Assembly: GCF_900106595.1 (NCBI RefSeq)
Contig: NZ_FNNC01000001.1
Coordinates: 372,001-436,000, forward strand
Reading direction: 5' to 3'
Source: Marinococcus luteus
GTDB taxonomy: Bacteria; Bacillota; Bacilli; Bacillales; Marinococcaceae
Length of the DNA: 64,000 nt
Part shown: positions 37,636-39,152 of the stretch, piece by piece
Position numbering within the stretch: the first letter of the stretch is position 1
Layout of the letters: each line of letters starts with the position of its first letter
Translations under genes and position numbers: made by a program
Notes under the pieces: generated by a model
Seen by the model: only the letters and a program-made list of their open reading frames with translations
Told to the model about the DNA's origin: nothing
The model's database searches: none

Positions 37636-38472
37636 ATGAAAAAAGTTGTTGGATCCATGTTAACTGGTGCGCTGGTGTTTAGTTTAGCTGGCGGAGGCAC
37701 AGCGTTGGCCGACAGTCATGATACGGAAGAGGGCGCATCGGAAGACAACGGGATGGTAAGAATTGTGCATGCCTCTCCTGATGCACCCGAAGTTGATGTG
37801 TACGTTGATGGAGAAGCTGTAGTCGAAGGGGCGGCTTTCAAGGATGCAACTGATTATTTGGAAGTACCGGAAGGCGAGCGCGAGATAGAGATATTTGCTG
37901 CTGGTGAAGAAGGCGAAGGCGATCCTGTATTGTCCGGCACGCTTGATGTGGAAGAGGGCGAAGCTTATACAGCTGCAGCTACAAACACGCTGGAAGACAT
38001 TGAGCTGAGCGTACTGGAAGACAATCAGGAAGCAGCAGAGGGAATGGCGAACGTAAGGGTTGCGCACTTTTCTCCTGACGCTCCAAATGTTGATGTAGCA
38101 GTAACAGACGGAGATATTTTGTTTGAAGATGCCCCGTTCACCGGTGTGACGGATTATATGGAAGTGGAAGCCGGATCTTATGATCTCGAAGTACGGCCGA
38201 CAGGAACCGAGGATGTAGTACTCGACCTTGCCGGTACGGAGCTTGAGGAAGGCATGAATTATTCTGTACTTGCTGTTGGCTTTGCAGAAGGCGATCCTGA
38301 ACTTGATGCCATTATACTTGCTACCCCTTCCAGTGAGAGTATGCCATCTGAAATGCCGCAGACTGGAGCAGCCGGAACAGATAATACGATGATGTACGTA
38401 TTGGCTGGCCTGTTAGCAGCTGGTCTTGGGGCTGGATACTATGCACGCCGCCGCGCGGGCGCTTCTTCATAG
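37636..38472 (+). CDS. DUF4397 cell-wall protein with sortase signal
   Basis: 278 residues. Signal peptide (MKKVVGSMLTGALVFSLAGG then TALADSHD). Two DUF4397 beta-rich repeats start MVRIVHASPDAPEVDVYVDG (about residue 38) and VRVAHFSPDAPNVDVAVTDG (about residue 140). The C-terminus is a wall-sorting signal: MPQTG near residue 237, a hydrophobic helix (MYVLAGLLAAGLGAGYY) and ARRRAGASS. MPQTG deviates from LPXTG. Its tail overlaps the sortase gene. Very acidic. Confidence 0.85.
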   Translation: MKKVVGSMLTGALVFSLAGGGTALADSHDTEEGASEDNGMVRIVHASPDAPEVDVYVDGEAVVEGAAFKDATDYLEVPEGEREIEIFAAGEEGEGDPVLSGTLDVEEGEAYTAAATNTLEDIELSVLEDNQEAAEGMANVRVAHFSPDAPNVDVAVTDGDILFEDAPFTGVTDYMEVEAGSYDLEVRPTGTEDVVLDLAGTELEEGMNYSVLAVGFAEGDPELDAIILATPSSESMPSEMPQTGAAGTDNTMMYVLAGLLAAGLGAGYYARRRAGASS

Positions 38473-39076
38473 CATTCTCTTCGCTTTCCTGGTTCTTTTT
38501 TTATCCGGTAGCTCAGAGGAATTCACGGAAGCGGAAACAGCTTATTCGGAAGCGTCAATAGAAGGGGCAGAAGCTTCGGAGGTCGGGGAGCGGACAGAGA
38601 CAGAGACACAGACAGCTTCATCAACTCAGTCGATTTCACCGGCATCAATCAGGATAAGCTCGATTGGGCTGGAAGCGGCAGTGGATGATATGGGATATAC
38701 GGAAAGTGGGGGAATGGAAGTGCCGGATAACGGGGAGGATACCGGATGGTTTTCGCCGGGATTCAAGCCGGGGCAGCAGGGGAATGCGGTCATCGCAGGC
38801 CATGTGAATGACCGTTCCGGTCCTGCTGTGTTTTACCATCTGGATAAACTCAGGCAGGGAGATTTGATTGAAGTAATCGATGAATCCGGGGAATCGATTA
38901 CTTTTGAAATGGAATCTGCTGAATCTTATCCGTATGACGATGCTCCGATCCAACAGATTTTCGGTGCCTCGAGCGAACGTTCGCTGCAGCTGATTACATG
39001 CACCGGAGAGTTCGACGATGAGGCCGGCACACACCGCGAAAGGCTGGTGGTCACCGCTTCCGTAGTGGAAGAGTAA
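38441..39076 (+). CDS. Class D/F-type sortase, gene overlaps its likely substrate
   Basis: 211 residues. A short N-terminal hydrophobic segment (SILFAFLVLFLSG) and an acidic stalk lead to the sortase barrel: RISSIGLEAAVDD, catalytic His 121 in VIAGHVNDRSG, Cys 187 in LQLITCTGEF, and an Arg in HRERLVVTA. ATG 38441 lies inside the end of the DUF4397 gene, a 32-base overlap in another frame, with only a weak SD, so translation is probably coupled. The adjacent MPQTG protein is the obvious substrate. Confidence 0.85.
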   Translation: MHAAARALLHSILFAFLVLFLSGSSEEFTEAETAYSEASIEGAEASEVGERTETETQTASSTQSISPASIRISSIGLEAAVDDMGYTESGGMEVPDNGEDTGWFSPGFKPGQQGNAVIAGHVNDRSGPAVFYHLDKLRQGDLIEVIDESGESITFEMESAESYPYDDAPIQQIFGASSERSLQLITCTGEFDDEAGTHRERLVVTASVVEE

Positions 39077-39101
39077 CGAAAGCCTGCTTTGGATTGAACG
39101 A

Positions 39102-39152
39102 AAACCTGAATTCTGGACACAGAAACAAGTGTTCATGATTCAGGTTTTTCAT
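39102..39152 (+). terminator. Terminator of the sortase operon
   Basis: AAACCTGAAT (39102-39111) pairs with ATTCAGGTTT (39138-39147), with inner ACAC/TGTT pairing and a T-rich tail. Confidence 0.8.

Follow-up and report, generated by a model that had tools for sequence, protein, structure and literature searches.

Does the sortase gene that begins inside the end of a DUF4397 protein gene in the salt-loving bacterium Marinococcus luteus form, with that gene, a dedicated system in which the enzyme serves a single client? We addressed this question in a window of 64,000 nucleotides (C8:372001-436000 of genome G000, which comprises 15 contigs); coordinates below are those of the window, and all features lie on the + strand, unless a contig or locus is named. 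We consider it likely that the two genes form a unit in which a secreted DUF4397 client would be cleaved at its MPQTG motif and joined to the wall by its own sortase, with coupled translation and restriction of the enzyme to this one client.

The DUF4397 client and its overlapping sortase gene

The client gene (37636..38472), recovered from the ORF list and by profile matches, encodes a 278-aa DUF4397 protein with an apparent signal peptide. The latter (37636..37710, read in the sequence) ends in ALA at its presumed cleavage site and is followed by two DUF4397 repeats (37753..38325; profile matches at C8:409753-410100 and C8:410047-410325), with the PF14344 profile matching at E 4.4e-56 and 189 bits, above its gathering score of 30.6. 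Further downstream, reading of the sequence and a motif scan both located the sorting motif MPQTG (38353..38367), after which come a hydrophobic segment (hydropathy maximum, 1.58) and a basic tail, RRRAGASS, that opens with RRR (38368..38469 together). The client C-terminus has the three parts of an LPXTG-type signal, namely a motif in which M replaces L, a hydrophobic segment, and a basic end. The LPXTG anchor model TIGR01167 (cut-off, 15.9 bits) scored it at 18.6 bits in the genome scan and 14.8 bits in the protein scan, and the residues after the motif are AAG, not xGG as in the family consensus. A profile search found DUF4397 in this one gene of the genome only, a sequence search for a related solved structure returned none at E up to 1, and the defence-system search gave no match.

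The second gene (38441..39076), detected as an ORF with Sortase and class F profile matches, encodes a class-F-like sortase of 211 aa whose Sortase domain (PF04203) matched at E 8.5e-22 and 77.7 bits, above the gathering score of 26.6. An alignment of relatives placed the catalytic residues at His121 (38801..38803), Cys187 (38999..39001), and Arg201 (39041..39043), which are invariant in all 183 aligned relatives. Class F (NF033748) was the best class model at 134.4 bits, with class E next at 41.6 bits; we file the enzyme as class-F-like only, because its score falls under the curated cut-off of 166. It resembles class F sortases in its best match and in the retained His, Cys, and Arg, whereas it and its relatives stay below that cut-off in every genome searched (0/397, 0/200, 0/98, and 0/39, in samples that share genomes). 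The class F model nevertheless matched all 22 relatives tried, with a best E of 3e-46 vs 1.9e-12 for class E. The nearest named relatives come from Marinococcus (85% identity) and Sinobaca (80%). The best matches to solved structures were 4d70, a sortase-family protein, at E 2.1e-5 with the single sequence, and the 9m/9i sortase series as the best hits of a profile search, at E 4.3e-7. Judged by these searches, the solved structures contain nothing close to the window sortase. A structure prediction from five sequences (mean pLDDT, 42) was set aside.

A lipobox-like pattern near the N-terminus was seen in 35/49 DUF4397-linked, 21/53 repeat-protein-linked, and 2/14 other sortases. At the place where many relatives carry this putative lipobox (LxGC/LAAC), comparison with those relatives shows LSGS in the window enzyme (38501..38512), and it and five relatives read LSGSS or LTGSS there, so a lipidated ancestor is likely; the lipidation cysteine has probably been lost from the window sortase. 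Behind the sortase gene, a hairpin followed by a T run (39100..39149; -25 kcal/mol, z -5.15), which is absent from the output of a simple terminator pattern scan, is the probable terminator of the two-gene unit.

The two genes share 32 nt (38441..38472), which are read in different frames and cover the basic tail of the client. Only two sortase starts, ATG 38441 and TTG 38426, are possible before the hydrophobic N-terminus; the ATG yields the 32-nt overlap, and no further start codon lies between it and that N-terminus. The ATG, the TAG, and the overlap are kept in every one of the six distinct sequences from Marinococcus/Sinobaca, among them that of the window. The original prediction, that the sortase starts in another frame within the last 32 bases of the client gene, over its basic tail, thus agrees with both the ORFs and the close sequences. 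The conservation of the overlap is narrower and confined to Marinococcus and Sinobaca; the wider family keeps close linkage alone. More specifically, we sorted the junctions of 44 other DUF4397 pairs according to which possible start codons precede the hydrophobic segment. Eleven necessarily overlap, with candidate lengths from 8 to 62 nt, 9 can begin on the last base of the client stop codon, 13 can begin 1 to 8 nt after it, 10 begin 20 to 24 nt after it, and 1 begins farther away, so that candidate sortase starts across the family fall mostly between -62 and +24 nt relative to the client end. On these candidate starts, close gene linkage is conserved in the wider family and overlap length is not, the 32 nt being specific to the Marinococcus/Sinobaca lineage.

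Before the window sortase start, which lies inside the client end, there is no SD-like match of at least 4 and no recognisable ribosome-binding site; ribosomes that have just completed the client probably translate the sortase. It is this geometry that suggests translational coupling. The overlap could instead be a by-product of compaction, without coupling, the sortase having a start signal of its own, as the wide range of candidate starts would allow and as is seen in g32 relatives with a spaced start and a good SD. We find this rather unlikely, given the bare start in the window, the 32-nt overlap retained in 6/6 close sequences, and the general lack of SD at overlapping or abutting junctions. 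An SD-like stretch of at least 5 occurs in 3/33 of these vs 11/11 loci with a gap of at least 20 nt, a contrast that counts as one evolutionary case, since all 11 spaced-start loci belong to a single genus, g32 of f21.

Under the coupled two-gene reading, the client would be exported via its signal peptide and retained by its C-terminal hydrophobic segment and basic tail. The enzyme, presumably held by its N-terminal helix, would read MPQTG (family consensus, MPxTGxGG), cut the T-G bond through Cys187, and link the client to peptidoglycan. Ribosomes finishing the client would probably go on to the sortase start, and the dose of the enzyme would be tied to that of the client.

Co-occurrence and co-inheritance of sortase and client

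We surveyed 397 genomes of the order, of which 226 contain DUF4397 and 179 show a class F match with E no higher than 1e-25, and we read 110 (30 loci and 80 stretches) of at least about 150 class F places. Within 700 nt upstream of these 110 places, we found DUF4397 in 44 cases, an LSEH repeat protein of the type encoded on C6 (see below) in 53, and neither in 13. Client tails read MPx[T/A]GxGG in 44/44 DUF4397 and 51/53 repeat-protein clients, counted without limits on motif positions 6-8. The two repeat-protein clients counted without GG, L111 and L115, both matched at a later site, and the L111 gene reads MPKTGMGG further upstream (L273, same place). The presence of MPQTG in place of LPXTG had been thought peculiar to the window pair; we rejected it as a special mark, MPxTG being the family norm in this survey.

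The reverse survey began from 70 DUF4397 loci (30 best and 40 fetched), which are best-scoring and not random, and yielded 71 distinct proteins. All 19 of these that bear a complete MPxTG signal have a class-F-like sortase downstream, whereas among the 52 without a complete signal, by the test used, the sortase is present in 2 and absent in 50. In the two exceptions, L231 (near 2856) and L248 (near 2922), the protein reads PKTGLGG, a stop codon follows five residues later, and the sortase gene comes next. Both loci are from genus g82, in which genome G142 also encodes a pair whose client is fully tailed (L173).

Sortase phylogeny provides a second line of evidence. In the main tree of 116 sortases, built by a quick method, 102 rows carry a client label, and among these, the DUF4397/repeat-protein label changes 4 times. 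The DUF4397 group requires 4 changes, a number as low as which none of 500 shuffles gave (their mean, 37.3), and the repeat-protein group requires 13 vs 38.6, its higher number arising because client-less rows sit among the repeat-protein rows. In a smaller first tree, from which 23 of 115 rows are absent, the window row falls within a supported set of 13, all of them DUF4397-linked; near the window, the starred set of the main tree is the Marinococcus/Sinobaca set of 5 only. The sortase tree follows client family. The surveys and the tree make a dedicated sortase-client pair, as originally predicted, a well-supported reading of these sequences.

Other sortases and sorting signals of the M. 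luteus genome

The genome encodes three PF04203 sortases, in the window and on C9 and C12, with class F the best model for two of them and class D for one. PF04203 and the class models found no class A housekeeping sortase, which speaks against the alternative, raised with the original prediction, that such an enzyme anchors the client. The C12 enzyme passes the cut-off for class D SrtD (223.6 vs 140 bits). Like the window sortase, it is encoded beside a surface-protein gene, but that neighbour is a DUF6612 protein ending in MPETA, without GG.

Sorting-signal searches of the genome gave 20 and 15 matches, and all but the weakest five of each were read. Among those read, a motif is borne by the window protein, an MPQTG frame on C6, the MPETA protein, and an MPETS protein on C13; the others are membrane segments without a motif, and no LPXTG protein is among them. 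Two anchor matches on C10 that exceed the cut-off were likewise rejected as sorting signals, being membrane segments without a motif. In addition, the pattern ATGCCNNNNACNGG matched the genome 36 times. One match has a stop within the motif, and the other 35, read in frame, include two sorting signals, those of the window and C6 proteins. A flagged MPxTG match at C14:181144, which we take to resemble the conserved end of FtsW/RodA, was dropped.

The search for other MPQTG proteins in the genome, which the original prediction had called for, therefore produced one, from a family that elsewhere is paired with another class-F-like branch. This C6 protein has a 474-codon open frame (L105:7609-9033) with LSEH-type repeats, an apparent signal peptide, and a tail, features on which we rejected the idea of a scanning artefact, and no Pfam or NCBIfam family matched it over its cut-off. 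As read from the sequence, its gene adjoins apparent ECF sigma factor and anti-sigma factor genes.

With two MPQTG proteins and two class-F-like sortases, the second of the latter on C9 (class F best, 141.3 bits vs a cut-off of 166), cross-activity is possible in this genome. Both enzymes might share both clients, such that the window pair would be a matter of neighbourhood and not an exclusive enzyme-substrate pair. The identical five letters in the two proteins, the shared best model of the two sortases, and the lack of an MPxTG client beside the C9 sortase in the 18 kb read would all fit such sharing. However, across the order, each sortase branch stays with its own client family, and in G012 and G014, of the same genus, the sortases close to that of C9 in the tree are encoded immediately downstream of a repeat-protein client. 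The C9 sortase pairs in the tree with L137, a row from the same genus beside which no client turned up; a starred set of 6 joins it to 4 repeat-protein rows, and its nearest repeat-protein rows by path, L088 and L085, are from the same genus and sit directly behind a repeat-protein client. Owing to this position, the C6 protein is most likely the client of the C9 enzyme, although both clients of the genome carry MPQTG. We therefore judge sharing of the clients to be unlikely, and a single substrate for the window sortase, as first proposed, remains likely, yet it has to be read alongside the one other MPQTG protein.

At L107:4558-9761 in the congeneric genome G014, the other class-F-like sortase is surrounded by two repeat proteins (MPQTGMGG and MPKTGMGG) and a CHRD protein (MPQTGMGG), and may therefore serve several clients.

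That the client simply stays in the membrane by means of its tail, with the sortase acting elsewhere or inactive, is very improbable: passages of a 2026 paper call the physiological role of class F unknown (PMC13251363), but signal and sortase co-occur in 19/19 cases, the catalytic residues are invariant, and every one of the 44 DUF4397 clients keeps the motif.

Clients without a membrane tail and the place of the family

We also surveyed 200 genomes of the class, 41 of which have a class F match, and pooled these with further loci to obtain 177 distinct sortases. Upstream of them lie 69 tailed repeat proteins, 55 tailed DUF4397 proteins (spanning 24 genera and 16 families), 1 other tailed protein, and 36 tail-less motif proteins, with no motif protein in 16 cases. 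The 36 tail-less proteins end in [ML]PxTGxGG plus 3-6 residues and a stop, with no membrane tail; the search pattern fixed P, G, and G at positions 2, 5, and 7 and limited positions 1, 4, and 8, so that their shared letters are no proof of an extended motif. The motif is followed by 3 residues in 20 cases, 4 in 2, 5 in 7, and 6 in 7 (L289, L290, L293-L295, L302-L308, L312-L318, L321-L323, L325-L331, L333-L337, L340, and L341). Most of these clients, which come from 14 genera and 3 families, have an apparent signal peptide, are His/Lys-rich, and have open frames 65-198 codons long; a few others are rich in Gly/Gln, and two have longer frames, of 365 and 411 codons, one of which encodes a CBM9-like domain.

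As a control, we examined 9,988 complete ORFs of at least 40 aa, drawn from loci chosen around sortases, and found that 40 end tail-less, all of them partnered with a sortase. Scanning 12 genomes with tail-less clients for P-K-T-G-x-G-G gave 14 matches, comprising 12 tail-less proteins and 2 chance ones, vs 2 for the reversed control pattern. By coordinates, 11 of the 12 tail-less proteins adjoin a class F match; that of G577 does not. This protein (L344, near 1501), a second client elsewhere in its genome, reads MPKTGLGG, and its 3-kb locus contains no sortase. Counting L231/L248, tail-less clients occupy three places in the sortase tree, in which the long branches and the quick method make the number of tail-less origins uncertain.

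We tentatively propose, with slightly less than even confidence, that the branch of class-F-like sortases in Bacilli to which the window enzyme belongs reads MPxTGxGG, each sortase mostly serving one adjoining client family, and that in three other families of the class the signal works without a membrane tail (e.g., MPKTGMGGASN, then a stop), so that the sortases would act on soluble exported proteins.

A dedicated sortase beside its substrate is familiar from class B and pilin (class C) sortases, which are encoded with their clients; unlike the window pair, those systems belong to other classes, use other motifs, and usually lie in larger islands. As cited in passages of two papers, the first work on class F concerned Cutibacterium/Propionibacterium acnes (Di Girolamo 2019), where the enzyme is a housekeeping sortase according to the title of that study and reads LPXTG (PMC13251363, PMC13257024), whereas window-type sortases sit with one MPxTGxGG client family. 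A passage of PMC13251363 reports no change in a quadruple class F mutant of Actinoplanes missouriensis. The five letters MPQTG recur in CnbB of Lactobacillus paracasei, but this is a collagen-binding protein from another group, for which the passages of PMC3716772 name no dedicated sortase. We found no description of DUF4397-sortase pairing, or of longer MPxTGxGG-type motif forms, in the open-access literature searched, a scope that leaves subscription papers mostly outside; the pairing is likewise not described in passages of PMC13251363, PMC13257024, PMC12843939, and PMC3716772.

We conclude that the window genes are a genuine, conserved pairing of sortase and client and that within their family they are ordinary; this family of class-F-like sortases with adjoining clients seems to be undescribed so far. 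Its most unusual aspect is not the window pair but the relatives with tail-less clients. If true, the tail-less signal would break the rule that a sorting signal consists of a motif, a hydrophobic segment, and a charged end. Class F relatives in Bacilli gain candidate clients, in the form of two main protein families and a tail-less set, together with a motif that can be put to the test. The usual view that a membrane tail is required is called into question by the tail-less clients, which also point to enzymes that could ligate soluble proteins by a short tag.
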